A stretch of DNA of 53,545 bases, taken from positions 1-53,545 of the forward strand of contig JAGAMO010000035.1 of NCBI GenBank assembly GCA_017624675.1, read 5' to 3'. How positions within the stretch are numbered: the first letter of the stretch is position 1; the number at the start of each line of letters is the position of its first letter. The stretch comes from Clostridia bacterium. GTDB taxonomy: Bacteria; Bacillota; Clostridia; Oscillospirales; Acutalibacteraceae. The translations under genes were made by a program, and so were the position numbers. Shown piece after piece: positions 8,156-47,345 of this stretch. The notes beneath the pieces were generated by a model. It had not been told where the DNA came from. It ran no database searches and saw only the letters and a list, made by a program, of their open reading frames with translations.

Positions 8156-8195
8156 GAATTCGTAATGCGTAATTCGTAATGCGTATTTACGAATC
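8156..8195. repeat. Left inverted repeat flanking the four-helix-bundle gene
   Basis: A run built from alternating AATTCG and TAATGCG units. It contains the 13-mer AATGCGTAATTCG (8164-8176), present in inverted orientation at 8557-8569. The stop codon of the four-helix-bundle gene lies inside it, and the parC ribosome site starts right beside it. Confidence 0.75.
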
Positions 8196-8537
8196 ACACT
8201 TTTGAGTTTTAGTTATAGACATCAAAATTTTTATAAGTTCTTGACAATCGAAATGCAAACTTTCAAACAAATTATTATCTATATAATCCGTTTCATTTAA
8301 GATTTCAAGCCAATATTCAGTTTCGCTGGCTTCTTTGAGGGCTATATTCATTTTTGCATAAAAATCCGCCTTACTTTGTCCTCTTACAGCCTCTTTAATA
8401 TTTGCACCGATACTTGTACCGCTTCTCATTATTTGCTTTGACAAAATAAACTCTTTTTTAGAATCATTGAGAAACTTGCTTAATTTAACAATTCTTATTG
8501 CAAAAGCCTTGCTTTTCACAACAATTATATTCTCCAT
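8187..8537 (-). CDS. Four-helix-bundle protein (23S rRNA intervening-sequence family)
   Basis: A 116-residue all-helical protein of the S23 / 23S rRNA IVS family (PF05635, TIGR02436 by recognition). Marker segments are SKQIMRSGTSIGANIKEA and the ETEYWLEILNETDYI stretch. The family is related in fold to the Avd accessory proteins of diversity-generating retroelements, but no reverse transcriptase is present here. Members often sit in IVS elements or between unrelated genes; their biochemical role is unsettled. I chose the ATG at 8537 because AAAGG lies 9 nt upstream; the ATG at 8546 abuts that site. It interrupts the topoisomerase operon and is framed by inverted repeats. Confidence 0.88.
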   Translation of the reverse strand: MENIIVVKSKAFAIRIVKLSKFLNDSKKEFILSKQIMRSGTSIGANIKEAVRGQSKADFYAKMNIALKEASETEYWLEILNETDYIDNNLFESLHFDCQELIKILMSITKTQKCDS

Positions 8538-8550
8538 ATCTACCATCCTT

Positions 8551-8584
8551 TAATTCCGAATTACGCATTACGCATTCCGAATTA
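8551..8584. repeat. Right inverted repeat flanking the four-helix-bundle gene
   Basis: Two AATTCCGAATT-like ends frame tandem ACGCATT units. The 13-mer at 8557-8569 is the reverse complement of 8164-8176. The repeat begins exactly at the stop codon of the parE-like gene (8582-8584), as if an element had inserted there. Confidence 0.75.
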
Positions 8585-10564
8585 ACTAATATCGGCATCA
8601 TCTAAATATAGATAGCCGTTTTCTGCAATGAATTCTTTTCTGCCCTGCAAATCATCACCCAAAAGCATATCAAACATTTGAGCTGTTCTCTCAGCCTCCT
8701 CAGGCATAACCTTTACAAGACGTCGGGTTTCGGGGTTCATTGTGGTAAGATTCATCATATCGGGTTGGTTCTCACCAAGTCCCTTTGAGCGCTGTAAGGT
8801 ATACTTTTTATCCCCGATTTTTGTGAGAATATCGTTCTTTTCCTTTTCGTCGTATGCAAAATAGGTCATATCCTTGGTGCCGATTTCATAAAGAGGTGTT
8901 TCGGCTATAAACACCTTGCCCTCGTTAATAAGTGTCGGCATTAATCGATGTATCATAGTCAAAATAAGAGTTCTAATGTGGAAACCGTCAACATCGGCAT
9001 CGGTACAAATTATAATCTTGTTCCAACGAAGCGCCGATAAATCAAAGGTTGCAAGACCCTTGTTAGCCTTAGACTTAACCTCAACACCGCAACCTAAAAT
9101 TTTAATAAGGTTGGTTATAATCTCACTTTTGAACACCTTATCGTAATCAGCCTTTAAGCAGTTTAAGATTTTACCTCTTACAGGCATTATAGCTTGGAAT
9201 TCAGCGTTACGGGCAAGTTTACAAGAACCTAAAGCCGAATCACCCTCAACTATAAATACTTCTCTTAAGTTTACATCTTTAGAGCGGCAGTCAACAAACT
9301 TTTCAACACGGTCAAGCATACTGTTAGAGCTTTGGAGTGTTTTCTTAATGTTAATGCGTTCACGCTCACTTCTCTCACGACTTCGCTTATTTATAAGCAC
9401 TTGGTCGGCAATTTTCTCTGCCTCGGTTTTGTTCTCAATAAAGTAAACCTCTAACTGATGGCGGAGGAAATCTGCCATAGCCTCATAAATAAATTTATTT
9501 GTGATAGCTTTTTTGGTCTGGTTTTCATAGGAGGTCATAGTTGAGAAAGAGGAAATCACCAAAACCAAGCATTCTTCAACATCCGAGAAGGTAATTTTAC
9601 TCTCGTTATTTTTGTATTTATTCGTCTGCTTTATATAAGCATCAATCTGAGAAACAAGAGCGTTTCTCGTTGCCCTTTCGGGAACACCGCCATGCTCAAG
9701 CCAGCTCGAGTTGTGGTAATACTCTTTTAAGGTTTTCTTATTTGAAAAAGCCAAGGCGGCATTGATTTTAACCTTGTATTCGGGCTTGTCCTCTCGGTCA
9801 CGACCCTTTCTCTCTGTGGACCAGGTCTGCACAGTTGTGAGTGCATCCTCGCCGACCGTTTCGTTAACATAGTCAACAATACCGTTATTATAAACTATAT
9901 CGTGGTTTATAAATTTGTTCCCCTGCTGTTCTCTGAACTGGAACAAAAGTCCGTCATTTACAATGGCTTGTCTTTTCAAGGTATCCAAGAAATACTCTAC
10001 GGGAATATCAGTCTCGGTAAATACCTCTAAGTCGGGTTTCCAACGGGTTTTGGTGCCTGTATCTCTGCCGCTGTAAGGCTCCTTTTTAAGACCGCCCACA
10101 TTATATCCCTTTTCAAAGTGGAGGTTATATTTAAAACCGTCACGCTTAATTTCAACATCCATATATTCAGAGGAATACTGTGTCGAGCAAAGACCCAAAC
10201 CGTTAAGTCCAACCGAATATTCATAGTTTGCGCCGTCGTTGGTGTTATATTTACCACCAGCGTAAAGTTCGCAATATAAAAGCTCCCAGTTATAACACTG
10301 TTCATTGTTGTTAAAGTCAACTGGGGCGCCGCGTCCAAAGTCTTGAACTTCAATAGAACCGTCAGAATATTTTGTAACAATTATTTTATTACCAAAGCCC
10401 TCGCGCGCTTCGTCTATAGAGTTTGAAATAATCTCAAAAGCAGAATGTTCGCAACCGTCAAGACCGTCCGAGCCGAAAATAACACCCGGGCGTTTACGGA
10501 CACGGTCAGGACCCTCAAGCTTTTTAATGCTTTCGTTATCGTATTTCACATTGGTTTTTGCCAT
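8582..10564 (-). CDS. parE: Type IIA DNA topoisomerase subunit B (ParE/GyrB-like)
   Basis: ATPase subunit partnering the ParC-like protein. The GHKL ATP site is visible (SNSIDEA, DFGRGAPVD, VGLNGLGLCS), as are the switch lysine loop NQTKKAI and the TOPRIM metal motifs EGDSALG and DADVDGFHIRTLIL. Several motifs deviate from the textbook forms (EGDSAGG, GGLHGVG), in line with a divergent clostridial paralogue rather than the primary gyrB. I chose the ATG at 10564 because GAGGAG is about 10 nt upstream; the ATG at 10573 is too close to that site. Length 660 residues. Confidence 0.82.
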   Translation of the reverse strand: MAKTNVKYDNESIKKLEGPDRVRKRPGVIFGSDGLDGCEHSAFEIISNSIDEAREGFGNKIIVTKYSDGSIEVQDFGRGAPVDFNNNEQCYNWELLYCELYAGGKYNTNDGANYEYSVGLNGLGLCSTQYSSEYMDVEIKRDGFKYNLHFEKGYNVGGLKKEPYSGRDTGTKTRWKPDLEVFTETDIPVEYFLDTLKRQAIVNDGLLFQFREQQGNKFINHDIVYNNGIVDYVNETVGEDALTTVQTWSTERKGRDREDKPEYKVKINAALAFSNKKTLKEYYHNSSWLEHGGVPERATRNALVSQIDAYIKQTNKYKNNESKITFSDVEECLVLVISSFSTMTSYENQTKKAITNKFIYEAMADFLRHQLEVYFIENKTEAEKIADQVLINKRSRERSERERINIKKTLQSSNSMLDRVEKFVDCRSKDVNLREVFIVEGDSALGSCKLARNAEFQAIMPVRGKILNCLKADYDKVFKSEIITNLIKILGCGVEVKSKANKGLATFDLSALRWNKIIICTDADVDGFHIRTLILTMIHRLMPTLINEGKVFIAETPLYEIGTKDMTYFAYDEKEKNDILTKIGDKKYTLQRSKGLGENQPDMMNLTTMNPETRRLVKVMPEEAERTAQMFDMLLGDDLQGRKEFIAENGYLYLDDADIS

Positions 10565-18886: not shown

Positions 18887-20236
18887 TTATTTTCTCAAAC
18901 CCTTTGGGTAATGGTTTTTAGCTCTGCCATTTACCACCTTTGCTCCGCCAAGTGGGAAACCGTCAACTAAAACTGCCGCCCAACCGTTTTCACAGTCGGC
19001 GTCAATCTCCTCGCCGTGCAAATATTTGATAATCTCGTTGCTATCGGCGGTTAGATTTATTTTCCGCTTAAATTCGTTTCCTAATGCTGTGAAAAATTGA
19101 TGGTGGGGCAAAATGCGGTTTTTTCTGATTTCGCCAATAGTTATTCCACAGCAAAAAGCCTGACCGTCCCTAATCGGTAGTTGATTGTTATAATAAACGG
19201 GGTTGCCGTTATAAGTTGTCACAAAATCGGGATTGTAATTAACCAAGGTGTCCTCTAAAAACTCGGTTACTGTTTTATCTGTTTTTGCAGTTATGGGTTT
19301 AATAACAGCGGTTTCGGCTTCTTCGCTCTTGTGATGAAGCACCGCCATAAACTGACCCTCACCCTTTGCCTTGTGGGGATAAAATCTACGGGCAAAATGG
19401 ATATTTTGACACTCGCAACCCTCAAAGCAAATTCCGTCACTTGTGTATTTTTTTACCCTATCGTTAACGGGGATAATCTCAAAATCGGGGTGGCGTTTTA
19501 AAAAGGCGTCAACCGTCATTTCATTTTCCTCAAGTGAAAAGGTGCAGGTGGCGTATATAATATATCCACCGCTTTTTAAGGTGCAAACCGCGTTATCTAA
19601 AATCTCGGCCTGACGCTTGGCGCACATTAAAACATTGCTCTCACTCCACTCCGAAACAGCGGTTTCCTCTTTCCTGAACATCCCCTCGCCCGAGCAAGGA
19701 GCGTCCACCATAACCATATCAAAGCAATTAGCAAAAACTGTGGCTAATTTCCCACTTTCCATACAGGTTGTTACGGCGTTATGTAAACCCAATCTCTCGA
19801 TGTTTCCTGTGAGGATTTTACAGCGTGATGGTATAATCTCGTTTGAAACAAGCACTCCCCTCTCGCCCAATTTGTTCTTGATTTGGGTGCTTTTTCCGCC
19901 TGGTGCGGCGCACATATCAAGCACTCGCCAATTGGGGTTTATGTCTATACATTCGGCGGGTGCCATTGCGGCGGGTTCTTGCACATAAATCAGCCCCGCG
20001 TGGTGATATGGATGGTTGCCGATTTTATCATATTCAAGATAAAATCCATTTTCCACATAAGGGATTTTATTATTTGAAAAAACATTGATTTTTTCAAATT
20101 CCTCAAGACTTATCTTATCGGTGTTAACTCTGAAAGCCTTAACGGGAGGATTTTCAAGCTCGTTTTTATAGGCTGCAAAATCTTCTCCCAACAGTTTTTT
20201 CATTCGGTTTTCATATTCTAAGGGCAAGTTAATCAT
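18887..20236 (-). CDS. rsmF: rRNA cytosine-C5 methyltransferase, RsmF/NOL1-NOP2-Sun type
   Basis: SAM-dependent m5C methyltransferase of 449 residues. The SAM loop VLDMCAAPGGKST is near residue 105. The two catalytic cysteines are in MVDAPCSGEGMF and ATCTFSLEENE. The extended C-terminal part (after residue 290), with NHYPKGLRK at the very end, matches RsmF-like proteins rather than the shorter RsmB. It overlaps rsmE by the ATGA arrangement (4 nt). Exact rRNA target inferred only from family. Confidence 0.88.
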   Translation of the reverse strand: MINLPLEYENRMKKLLGEDFAAYKNELENPPVKAFRVNTDKISLEEFEKINVFSNNKIPYVENGFYLEYDKIGNHPYHHAGLIYVQEPAAMAPAECIDINPNWRVLDMCAAPGGKSTQIKNKLGERGVLVSNEIIPSRCKILTGNIERLGLHNAVTTCMESGKLATVFANCFDMVMVDAPCSGEGMFRKEETAVSEWSESNVLMCAKRQAEILDNAVCTLKSGGYIIYATCTFSLEENEMTVDAFLKRHPDFEIIPVNDRVKKYTSDGICFEGCECQNIHFARRFYPHKAKGEGQFMAVLHHKSEEAETAVIKPITAKTDKTVTEFLEDTLVNYNPDFVTTYNGNPVYYNNQLPIRDGQAFCCGITIGEIRKNRILPHHQFFTALGNEFKRKINLTADSNEIIKYLHGEEIDADCENGWAAVLVDGFPLGGAKVVNGRAKNHYPKGLRK

Positions 20237-20982
20237 TTGTTTTCCTCAAACATTTCAATCTCTAACATACACATTGAAACAGCGGTAATAGCCGCAGTTT
20301 CGGTGCGCAAAATTCTTTTACCAAGAGAAATTGTTTTGGCTTCGCTCTCGATTGCCTTTTCAATTTCTGTTTTGTCAAATCCACCCTCGGGTCCTATAAA
20401 AATTCCAACCGACTCAACAGTTTTAAGCTCTGCTAATGCTTCAATAGTCGCCTTCATACCCTCTTTATTTTCGTAAGGCACCATAATCATATCAAGTGTT
20501 TTAGCATATTCTAACGCTTTGCCAAAGGGCAAAACCTCTGAAATTTTGGGGATTATATTTCGTTTGCTCTGCTTTGCGGCACTTTCACAAATAGCTTGCC
20601 ACCGAGCAACCTTTGATTTTGCCTTTTTATCATCTAGTTTGACAACGCAGTTTTTCATTGCAACGGGAATAATTTCAAAGATGCCTAGTTCAACGCATTT
20701 TTGAATTATGTATTCCATCTTGTCACCCTTAGGCAAGCCTTGGAACAGATATATTTTAACGGGAAGTTCGGTGCTTGTATAATTTTCTTCTGCAATTTCC
20801 AAACAAACAAATTCTTCGGAAAATGAATTAATGCGACACAAATCACTCTGCCCGTCACAGCTTACAAGACAGGTATCCCCCACTTGCATTCTCAAGACAT
20901 TTTTAATGTGATTATAGTCACTTCCCGTTATATAATAAAAGGAATCTTTTTTGTTTTCTTGATTTGCGAAAAAATTAAACAT
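20233..20982 (-). CDS. rsmE: 16S rRNA m3U1498 methyltransferase RsmE
   Basis: SPOUT-class (trefoil knot) methyltransferase. A PUA-like N-terminal domain is followed by knot signatures GPEGGFDKTEIEKA and LGKRILRTETAAI. I chose the ATG at 20982 (249 residues, starting MFNFFANQ) because AAGG is 9 nt upstream and because family members begin near that point. An upstream in-frame start at 21036 would add a hydrophobic, low-complexity tail. Confidence 0.92.
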   Translation of the reverse strand: MFNFFANQENKKDSFYYITGSDYNHIKNVLRMQVGDTCLVSCDGQSDLCRINSFSEEFVCLEIAEENYTSTELPVKIYLFQGLPKGDKMEYIIQKCVELGIFEIIPVAMKNCVVKLDDKKAKSKVARWQAICESAAKQSKRNIIPKISEVLPFGKALEYAKTLDMIMVPYENKEGMKATIEALAELKTVESVGIFIGPEGGFDKTEIEKAIESEAKTISLGKRILRTETAAITAVSMCMLEIEMFEENK

Positions 20983-21099
20983 AAAGCACAACCTTGTTTT
21001 AAAGTTAATTATTATGGTTATGATTAGTCGAAACATTTCTGTTTCGACTAACTACAATCATAATTATATCAGTAAATCGAAATATTTACAAGGGTAATA

Positions 21100-21136
21100 A
21101 AAAACAGTCCCGACCCTACGGTCGAAACTGGGTTTT
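21100..21136. terminator. Hairpin with CCCGACC core (third hairpin of the tRNA-Pro mosaic)
   Basis: CGACC (21111-21115) pairs with GGTCG (21120-21124), with outer pairing of ACAGT and ACTG and a following GGGTTTT. The core CCCGACC-loop-GGTCGAA is the same as in the hairpin at 21502-21538. Confidence 0.45.
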
Positions 21137-21141
21137 AAATT

Positions 21142-21319
21142 CAAGGCGAAGCCTTGTATATCATCAAAATGTTAGTTTTGCATATCATCAGTGGCAAAGC
21201 CGCTGTATCTCATCAAGCCGATAGAGATATGCACACCTGCGGTATGATGATATCCGCCGCACGAGTGCAGCAATGATATACACGCTAAAGCGTGATGATA
21301 TACCAAGCCTATCGGCTTG
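21142..21319. repeat. 3+3 imperfect palindrome of ATATCATCA units with interposed mini-hairpins
   Basis: Left half: three direct copies of TATATCATCA (21157-21166, 21181-21190, and variant 21206-21215), each preceded by a short, hairpin-like segment such as CAAGGC-GAA-GCCTTG (21142-21156). Right half: three complementary copies TGATGATAT (21245-21253, variant 21272-21280, 21293-21301), followed by mini-hairpins such as CACGCT-AA-AGCGTG (21281-21294) and CAAGCC-GGCTTG (21304-21319). AAGCCGATAG (21215-21224) is also the exact complement of 21309-21318. The halves can form one long stem with small hairpins protruding from both sides. No ORF fits. I do not know a named family for it. Confidence 0.8.
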
Positions 21320-21323
21320 AATA

Positions 21324-21355
21324 AAAAATCCTCGTTCCGAAGAACGAGGATTTTT
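21324..21355. terminator. Strong bidirectional hairpin terminator
   Basis: A perfect 14-bp stem pairs 21324-21337 (AAAAATCCTCGTTC) with 21342-21355 around CGAA. A/T runs on both sides. It separates the palindrome from the broken tRNA copy. Confidence 0.85.
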
Positions 21356-21450
21356 GGTCCGAGTGACAGGGTGCGGGTGTCCAGTGGACACCTCTGTGCA
21401 TTGCACAGAAGCACCGACCGAGGCGACAGCCGAGACCTTGAACCTGCGGC
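21355..21450 (-). pseudogene. Broken copy of the tRNA-Pro 3' end with a 66-nt insertion
   Basis: 21355-21370 is identical over 16 nt to 21539-21554 (CCA end, discriminator, acceptor strand and start of the T stem). 21437-21450 is identical over 14 nt to 21556-21569 (T loop and stem). In the intact tRNA one base lies between these blocks; here 66 nt (21371-21436) intervene. The insert holds two perfect 7-bp hairpins (GGTGTCC/GGACACC and TCTGTGC/GCACAGA) closed by GGTGC (21370-21374) with GCACC (21411-21415), a three-way junction. No 5' half of the tRNA is present. Confidence 0.7.
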
Positions 21451-21476
21451 AACTTTTCTTAACGCTCAGACCTTCT

Positions 21477-21490
21477 CAGGTTCAAGTCCT
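21477..21490 (+). repeat. Inverted 14-nt copy of the tRNA-Pro T arm
   Basis: CAGGTTCAAGTCCT is the exact reverse complement of 21552-21565 in the intact tRNA-Pro. Its first ten bases also pair with 21437-21446, enclosing a 30-nt loop. Confidence 0.7.
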
Positions 21491-21501
21491 ATAATAATAA
21501 A

Positions 21502-21538
21502 AAAATCCAAACCCGACCAAATGGTCGAATTTGGATTT
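21502..21538 (-). terminator. Terminator of tRNA-Pro
   Basis: Outer stem AAAATCCAAA/TTTGGATTTT and inner stem CGACC/GGTCG (21514-21518 with 21523-21527). On the minus strand the hairpin immediately follows the CCA end and is followed by TTTTTTTATT. Confidence 0.85.
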
Positions 21539-21614
21539 TGGTCCGAGTGACAGGACTTGAACCTGCGGCCTCTTGACCCCCAGTCAAGCGCGCTACCAGC
21601 TGCGCCACACCCGG
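21539..21614 (-). tRNA. tRNA-Pro, anticodon GGG
   Basis: Minus-strand cloverleaf of 76 nt. Acceptor CCGGGTG pairs with CACTCGG (one G-T pair, C1-G72 as expected for bacterial tRNA-Pro). D stem GCGC/GCGC. Anticodon stem CTTGA/TCAAG with loop CTGGGGG, anticodon GGG reading CCC and CCU. T arm GCAGG-TTCAAGT-CCTGT, discriminator A and an encoded CCA. It has its own promoter and terminator. Confidence 0.95.
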
Positions 21615-47130: not shown

Positions 47131-47304
47131 TCCATTATAAAACCGGCACTGGCTGGGGTCGCAGTCAATTCCGGACGGCAAATCGCTTTGCCGTTGTACA
47201 CAAAGTTCGCAAGTATCTTTATGTACTCCTAATTCTTTCGCCCGGTTTAAAATCGGACATACTCCGCAGAAATTTCCCCGTTCTAGACGGGCCACCTCCT
47301 GCAT
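47125..47304 (-). CDS. Cys-rich leader ORF upstream of rpsJ, unknown function
   Basis: A 59-codon frame inside the S10 operon leader. It encodes six cysteines in pairs: CGVC, CELC, and two later ones in [11 protein letters not shown]. It ends with tandem TGA TGA stop codons 59 nt before rpsJ. The ribosome site is weak, which argues against efficient translation. It may be a small zinc- or redox-responsive protein, a leader peptide, or chance; I cannot assign a family. Confidence 0.35.
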
Positions 47305-47345
47305 CAACGCATGTTTTACGCCATACTTTCACAGCGTACTGTCGT

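Follow-up and report, generated by a model that had tools for sequence, protein, structure and literature searches.

The palindrome at 21142–21319 of the window, by which we mean the whole 53,545-nt stretch of DNA that was analysed, raises the question of what kind of element repeats a unit three times, mirrors it three times and fills the spaces with small hairpins. The structure is real and chance is excluded: the exact word ATATCATCA occurs four times in the window, both strands counted, always inside the palindrome (0.48 expected), and none of 100 shuffles of the window reached four or more. Likewise, the 261 nt at 21100–21360 fold with -103.8 kcal/mol (z = -10.2), a value matched by 0 of 200 shuffles. 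The 3+3 arrangement of direct and mirrored units given in the preliminary description is present and supported by this word count and its shuffles. On the left, units 1 to 3 lie on the plus strand at 21156–21166 (GTATATCATCA), 21180–21190 (GCATATCATCA) and 21204–21215 (TGTATCTCATCA), the word itself starting at 21158 and 21182 as ATATCATCA and at 21207 as ATCTCATCA. On the right, units 4 to 6 lie on the minus strand at 21245–21255 (TGATGATATCC), 21272–21282 (AATGATATACA) and 21293–21304 (TGATGATATACC); here the word is exact at 21245–21253 and 21293–21301 and has one mismatch (AATGATAT) at about 21273–21280. Between the units the mini-hairpins could be located at 21143–21155 (hp1), 21166–21179 (hp2), 21190–21204 (hp3), 21233–21245 (hp4), 21256–21271 (hp5) and 21282–21293 (hp6), with loops of GAA, AAA and other sequences; in the window copy hp2 contains one T.G, and hp4 and hp5 one C.A mismatch each. 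A feature overlooked earlier is the 10-nt motif M at the palindrome centre (21215–21224, plus strand, AAGCCGATAG), which is complementary to the loop and 3' arm of the right-end hairpin R (21305–21318, AAGCC TATC GGCTT). The two strong hairpins said to border the palindrome were found at 21324–21355 and 21008–21067, and a further one is visible by eye at 21101–21128. The first of these has arms that are 100% complementary and are followed by a T-run, as in an ordinary Rho-independent terminator; this terminator covers 21324–21355 only and leaves the palindrome unexplained.

Judged by eye from the points at which three related copies (L001, L023 and L024) diverge, the true unit appears to be a cassette of about 226 bp on the minus strand (21129–21354), running from the base after a CCA to ..AAAACCCA. 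It comprises the terminator hairpin T as its first part (21324–21355, minus strand, AAAAATCCTCGTTC..GAACGAGGATTTTT), the 3+3 palindrome and the end AAAACCCA (21129–21136, minus strand), which is common to L023, and it abuts a 17-nt fragment of a tRNA-Pro 3' end (21355–21371, minus strand, ..CGGACCA). A host-type tRNA-Pro terminator comes after the cassette end (21101–21128, minus strand, GTTTCGACC..GGTCGGGACTGTTTTTT), and one resembling it by eye stands after the tRNA-Pro CCA in L228. Since the cassette is gene-less, ends in AAAACCCA at 21129 and is followed by this tRNA-Pro-type terminator, we read the RsmE gene on its left (20233–21036, PF04452) as a host gene and not as cargo. The statement that the palindrome lies downstream of a tRNA holds in part: a tRNA-Pro(ggg) does stand on its right (21539–21614, minus strand), but the 17-nt tRNA fragment, some 130 nt belonging to a distinct tRNA-tail insertion and a second terminator directly after the CCA of the intact tRNA (21502–21538, minus strand) intervene, in that order from the cassette. 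Tail units of this sort were seen at 21355–21501 of the window and in six other loci (L200, L206, L212, L221, L222 and L228), some in tandem. They measure about 130–310 nt, consist of rearranged tRNA-Pro pieces, often with a GTCC..GGAC palindrome, are inserted after tRNA-Pro and end in a copy of its 3' end (..ACCA); this is tRNA-end insertion of another kind than that of the palindrome cassettes.

The possibility, allowed for in the preliminary description, that no second copy exists in related genomes can be set aside, for the search of relatives revealed a dispersed family. Within its own genome (G000, a draft, 96.7% complete) the query 21130–21325 gave 17 matches at E <= 10, eight of them at E <= 0.001 in six places, on contigs C31 (the query itself), C37, C7, C14, C13 and C24; by eye, the matches on C13 and C24 are heads, as we call the palindromes, built of another unit word. 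Among 60 genomes, one per species and the own genome included, 21 contained a match at E <= 0.001, and the best foreign match, in G046 from another bacterial family, aligns over the full 196 bases with 93% identity. In the closest copies (L023, L024 and L028, among 33 copies read) the similarity spans the terminator hairpin and stops at the CCA of different tRNA ends, so that a T of common sequence accompanies the palindrome at each of them. From 37 parsed cores we kept 27 full-length copies; of the ten dropped, nine were kept copies on the opposite strand and one (L033) lay at a contig edge. An intact tRNA is found 52–63 nt off on the terminator side in 15 of the 27, a type-A end motif (see below) precedes two, and what precedes the remaining ten reads as a tRNA 3' fragment or as an end of some other type. 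Just before the A-rich terminator start stands CCA in 26 copies and ACA in one (L043), a count that rests on reading by eye, the script class 'CCA only' being weak alone. The unit sits immediately downstream of a tRNA 3' end, complete or fragmentary, or follows the end motif of the cassette before it.

An empty site could be recognized with HPr–tRNA-Pro as synteny anchor. QueT had been dropped as anchor, with a tRNA before it only in the query locus and one other (30 loci) and its gene start located by the motif in only 4 of 30; with RsmE, tRNA-Pro lay within the fetched flanks in 0 of 17 relatives. Thirty HPr loci were read: in 27 of them HPr has a tRNA-Pro(ggg) behind it in the same orientation (the exceptions being L208, with a convergent tRNA-Pro, and two loci that have none), and the sequence after its CCA is highly variable. 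In L224, a 240-bp unit consisting of terminator, ATATCATCA head and gene-less tail stands between the CCA and the host terminator AAATCCAAATTC.., whereas in L213 and in the window this terminator directly follows the CCA. These are a filled and an empty site, compared between species. An insertion route that is active, or recently was, is indicated by four features: the sharpness of the junction at CCA, the presence of an end motif, the arrays, and copies that are nearly identical in different families.

What the window copy lacks in genes, its sisters provide. As far as sequence comparison can tell, they are gene cassettes lined up behind tRNA genes in gut Clostridia, each with terminator hairpin, R, three units, M, three mirrored units and mini-hairpins between, then either a promoter with an accessory gene or S23 with another gene, one or two passenger genes in all, and an end in ..CCCA. 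In the larger stretches the order on the tRNA strand is tRNA..CCA, terminator, head, a TTGATT-17-TATAAT promoter, a small gene and an end motif such as GGTTTTCAGGCACTTTTCATTCGTGCCACTAAGTTCAAAACTCCCA, directly after which the next terminator and head come. Two heads stand in a row in L067 and three in L055, with differing unit words. At the head edge, 14 of the 27 full-length copies, but not the window copy, combine the -35 box TTGATT with a -10 box that matches at 5/6 or better, 15–19 nt away; in 13 of those 14 TATAAT lies exactly 17 nt from it. Neither count has a shuffled control. A free-standing MITE is rejected, since the head recurs in one unit together with terminator, promoter, gene and end motif. 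Heads made of ATGTAATCA, GTTATATT/AATATCAC, ATGAAAT, ATGATGT, AATGAAG, ATTCATT and further words keep the same order of parts, and heads with other unit words come after identical end motifs.

The end-motif pattern matched 50 stretches in a collection of 84,980 named species genomes, possibly one without the window's own genome: 49 are titled Clostridia or Oscillospiraceae and one 'bacterium', and 34 name a ruminant gut sample. Viral contigs gave 0 matches to the pattern, and in the window genome the type-A motif is absent at up to 2 mismatches. Inside the 50 loci we counted 60 end motifs (<=3 mismatches). An ORF stop lies 5–81 nt ahead of 50 of them (median 15; within 30 nt in 45), the ORFs having a median length of 181 aa; the other ten have no ORF within 150 nt, several since the locus begins there. 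Pfam, run on 20 proteins of which 17 came from the 50 cargo ORFs, returned HAD, GNAT, TIR, AAA_21, APH-type kinase, SAP domain, YcxB, RDD, DMP19 and DUF4085, with further weak matches below cut-off and four proteins that matched nothing. At least two more end-motif types, GGTTTTCGACCGG..GTGTCGGTCCCA and GGTTTTC..CAGTTCTTTTTCG..GACA, were seen by eye in L030, L043, L045, L055 and L152.

One gene recurs next to the head. In eight distinct copies the gene behind a ATATCATCA head is S23 (PF05635), and several of these copies have a variable second gene after it; one such S23 matches PDB 2rld (E 2.9e-15). In the own genome, an S23 on C14 stands behind a head of the window-palindrome kind and a tRNA-Gly. 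PF05635 was matched in 44 of the 60 genomes at E <= 0.001 and, across the phylum, in 35 of 249 at E <= 1e-10. For 28 of 30 S23 loci that could be parsed, the median inverted-repeat score was 22.75, whereas 130 control ORFs gave 12.5 (p = 2e-9), and scores of at least 20 were seen in 22 of the 28 and 25 of the 130. When 90 loci were fetched for PF05635 alone, 74 passed parsing, and 30 of these 74 S23 genes had the 3' end of a same-strand tRNA at most 600 nt upstream, compared with 2 of 53 other ORFs in the same loci (p = 8e-7); opposite-strand tRNA 3' ends upstream and tRNAs downstream both numbered 0 in the 74. This habit looks local to the window's order, because none of the 28 phylum-wide S23 loci read lies behind a tRNA. 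These 28, of 29, were read via match coordinates (L372 was too short); in many, by eye, S23 stands between mirrored tandem repeats, and the score is at least 20 in 14 (median 19.25, in a set that has no control of its own). Both of the two checked, L371 and L375, are inside 23S rRNA. The window itself holds a separate S23 element at 8163–8590 (minus strand), with an S23 ORF at 8187–8546 between mirrored AATGCGTAATTCG-type repeats, located between gyrB-like and gyrA-like genes. By eye, S23 follows what is apparently the same gyrB-like end in two relatives (L233 and L243).

Furthermore, one architecture serves different unit words, and the word appears to go with the S23 subfamily, each repeat type tending toward its own version of S23. 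This comparison used 84 loci; of the 85 kept, 84 passed a repeat-word filter that has no control, and 11 had been fetched for other reasons, mostly the head. The repeat-word cosine was 0.63 for S23 pairs of at least 80% identity (72 pairs), 0.23 at 60–80% (257) and 0.02 at 45–60% (1981), with a permuted mean of 0.045, and for pairs below 80% identity the Mantel r between S23 relatedness and repeat word was 0.42 (maximum of 500 permutations, 0.08). Below 60% identity, unit words are hardly common to both members of a pair; above it, the covariation may partly reflect co-inheritance of one element. The MADSPLIIKSKEFAL kind of S23 tends to follow AAGTAA/AGTGAA-type heads (L096, L299, L304–L306, L308, L309, L313 and L316). 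The element's presence shows only a weak association with having any S23, of which a match was found in 19 of the 21 genomes that bear the element and in 25 of the 39 others (p = 0.03); the two without were G002 (72% complete) and G014 (83% complete).

The palindrome is therefore no isolated curiosity: it belongs, as a member without genes, to a system of cassettes that occupy tRNA 3' ends and have a cognate S23 family. We consider it fairly probable that it forms the head of a non-autonomous mobile cassette of the S23 type whose movement S23 drives. S23 would recognise its own unit word, which probably lies exposed between the mini-hairpins when the DNA is single-stranded or extruded. With catalytic help from the host or another source, it would promote the unit's insertion where CCA|AAAA meet; copies that have no S23, the window copy included, would have moved in trans. 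S23 is the best candidate for the cognate factor because no tyrosine recombinase stood beside a ATATCATCA head in the 30 of 40 PF00589 loci read, RT and Y1 genes show no significant association with the element and four element-bearing genomes free of both have S23; its role as mobiliser is what we would predict from this. S23 is not known to have catalytic activity, so that the model still lacks a nuclease or recombinase. S23 might also regulate the adjacent promoter. Of the readings offered in the preliminary description, the non-autonomous mobile element is best supported, by the many copies, the cross-family near-identity, the filled and empty site and the position at tRNA 3' ends; that description had missed how the cassettes are built, their end motif and the link to S23. 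Nothing came up that would point to a nucleoid- or replication-associated repeat. More tentatively, and with rather less confidence, we suggest that these may represent a new class of mobile cassette, with tRNA 3' ends as docking sites, the 3+3 palindrome as identity tag and S23 as sequence-specific mobility factor, one subfamily per word, of which the intervening sequences (IVS) of 23S rRNA might be the oldest or simplest members.

Could the cassettes be moved as in integrons instead? The end motif would then be an attC-like folded site, the tRNA 3' end an attI-like site, and a tyrosine recombinase encoded elsewhere (e.g. of Xer type) would move the cassettes, leaving the head as arm region and S23 as frequent cargo or directionality factor. 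Like integron gene cassettes, those described here mostly carry a single gene, line up in arrays and have a structured site just after the ORF stop, in which outer and inner boxes look complementary by eye. Each of the 10 genomes examined contains PF00589 genes, and one such gene in the own genome (L019, on C7) adjoins a tRNA-Arg(cct) about 2.6 kb to the right of a ATATCATCA head. However, in 30 of 40 PF00589 loci that were read, about 1.5 kb to each side where the contig allowed, neither a ATATCATCA-type head nor a type-A end motif was found (0 of 30), and by eye no recombinase was seen among the 50 cargo ORFs, up to 230 residues of each being read (17 of the 50 were covered by Pfam). Boxes of attC sites read RYYYAAC/GTTRRRY, which the end motif GTTCAAAAC, compared by eye, does not seem to fit. 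Integron cassettes also differ in that each S23-type cassette has its own terminator and often a promoter, in the tRNA end as target, and in that no integrase was found next to a ATATCATCA head in the 30 loci read. That S23 subfamily tracks unit word is, moreover, unexpected of mere cargo. We therefore regard this explanation as unlikely, though it is the strongest of the alternatives.

Less probable still is that the head is a structured RNA or cis-regulatory region, transcribed or acting as an S23 operator for the edge promoter, and spread by ordinary gene transfer. The edge promoter in 14 of 27 heads fits such a role, and so does a match to a known RNA: Rfam detected Gut-1 RNA (RF01706) in two of 11 sister loci (L067 and L091), one alignment spanning three mini-hairpins with UGAAAU between them, which equals half of a sister head. 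Gut-1 has been grouped with likely noncoding RNAs and listed for the human gut only, and the description of it in PMC2864571, as far as it was available to us, mentions neither mirrored half nor tRNA neighbour, S23 or cassette. The window has no RF01706 match above cut-off, and a known RNA family was rejected for this copy, which has no Rfam match above cut-off. The hairpins and M–R covary, as an RNA fold would. Across the 27 copies, a paired fraction of 0.98 (hp2), 0.99 (hp3), 0.97 (hp5) and 0.95 (hp6) was found for arms of the same copy, and of 0.70, 0.70, 0.71 and 0.53 for arms crossed between copies; 0 of 2000 arm shuffles reached the observed pairing, though shuffles ignore relatedness. 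With this reservation, the earlier idea that the mini-hairpins have changed sequence and still pair is borne out for these four. A cruder stem measure gave smaller contrasts (5.5 vs 4.1 bp for hp2, 3.4 vs 2.7 for hp1), and all pair counts come from a custom parser. M and R pair over 9.0 bases on average, compared with 4.0 for crosses between the M of one type and the R of another, and by eye the relation is kept in sister heads with other words. Between units, 11 A.C and 1 G.T were counted on the plus strand (648 pairs, 35 of them non-standard), a minus-strand bias, in small numbers, that minus-strand RNA would also give. Against this, G.T-type pairs in the mini-hairpins favour the plus strand by 6 to 1 in the left half (hp2/hp3) and are 1 to 9 in the right half (hp5/hp6; p = 0.004). 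Such a switch of the tolerating strand at the palindrome centre is not expected of a single RNA strand, although the numbers are small. The window copy has neither promoter nor gene, and the sharp CCA junction and end motif require an insertion mechanism in any case. Finally, a REPIN-like single-stranded DNA element moved by a Y1 (IS200/RAYT) transposase is very improbable: a unit that lands 3' of a short fixed word and has hairpins close to either end does resemble IS200/IS605 logic, and Y1 genes occur in 38 of 60 relatives, but the own genome (0 at E <= 0.001) and four other element-bearing genomes, all drafts, have no Y1 match, the association with the element is not significant (16 of 21 vs 22 of 39, p = 0.17), nor is that of RT genes among the 60 genomes, and the four element-bearing genomes that match neither RT nor Y1 all have S23.

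Returning to the proposed S23-driven cassette, the closest known relatives are the 23S rRNA IVS, which carry S23, have terminal inverted repeats and are excised by RNase III according to PMC4990558, where S23 appears as a four-helix bundle, pentameric in Xanthomonas, and where an older proposal that the IVS ORF serves mobility is cited (Ralph and McClelland 1993). Both have S23 genes framed by element-specific mirrored repeats and insert in stable-RNA genes. The cassettes differ in inserting at tRNA 3' ends, in having the entire palindrome on one side of the gene, in carrying other genes instead of or after S23, and in being closed by an end motif. The window copy has the element-specific mirrored repeats, but it has no gene between head and end, hence no S23 (PF05635) coding sequence, and it stands behind a tRNA-Pro 3' end and not in a 23S rRNA helix. 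REPIN/RAYT systems, as described in PMC3116915, resemble it in their palindromic miniature units with one specific protein per repeat group; here the own genome has no Y1 match, the partner is S23 and the target a tRNA end. The window copy thus behaves as a cassette or REPIN-type element would, and it is a relative of the S23 IVS, yet it has too few of their defining features for membership. The open-access titles and starts of abstracts that were searched contained no description of S23 cassettes or tRNA-tail palindromes. Ever since the discovery of the rRNA intervening sequences S23 has, to our knowledge, lacked an assigned function, and the link between its subfamilies and repeat words offers many natural protein–site pairs for direct tests of that function. 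If S23 does move cassettes, gut Clostridia would own an integron-like route of gene exchange at tRNA genes, one that escapes searches for integrons or linked integrases, and the Gut-1 'RNA' would gain an explanation. Elsewhere in the window, an S10-Clostridia ribosomal protein leader (RF03136, 41.1 bits) was matched at 47238–47315.
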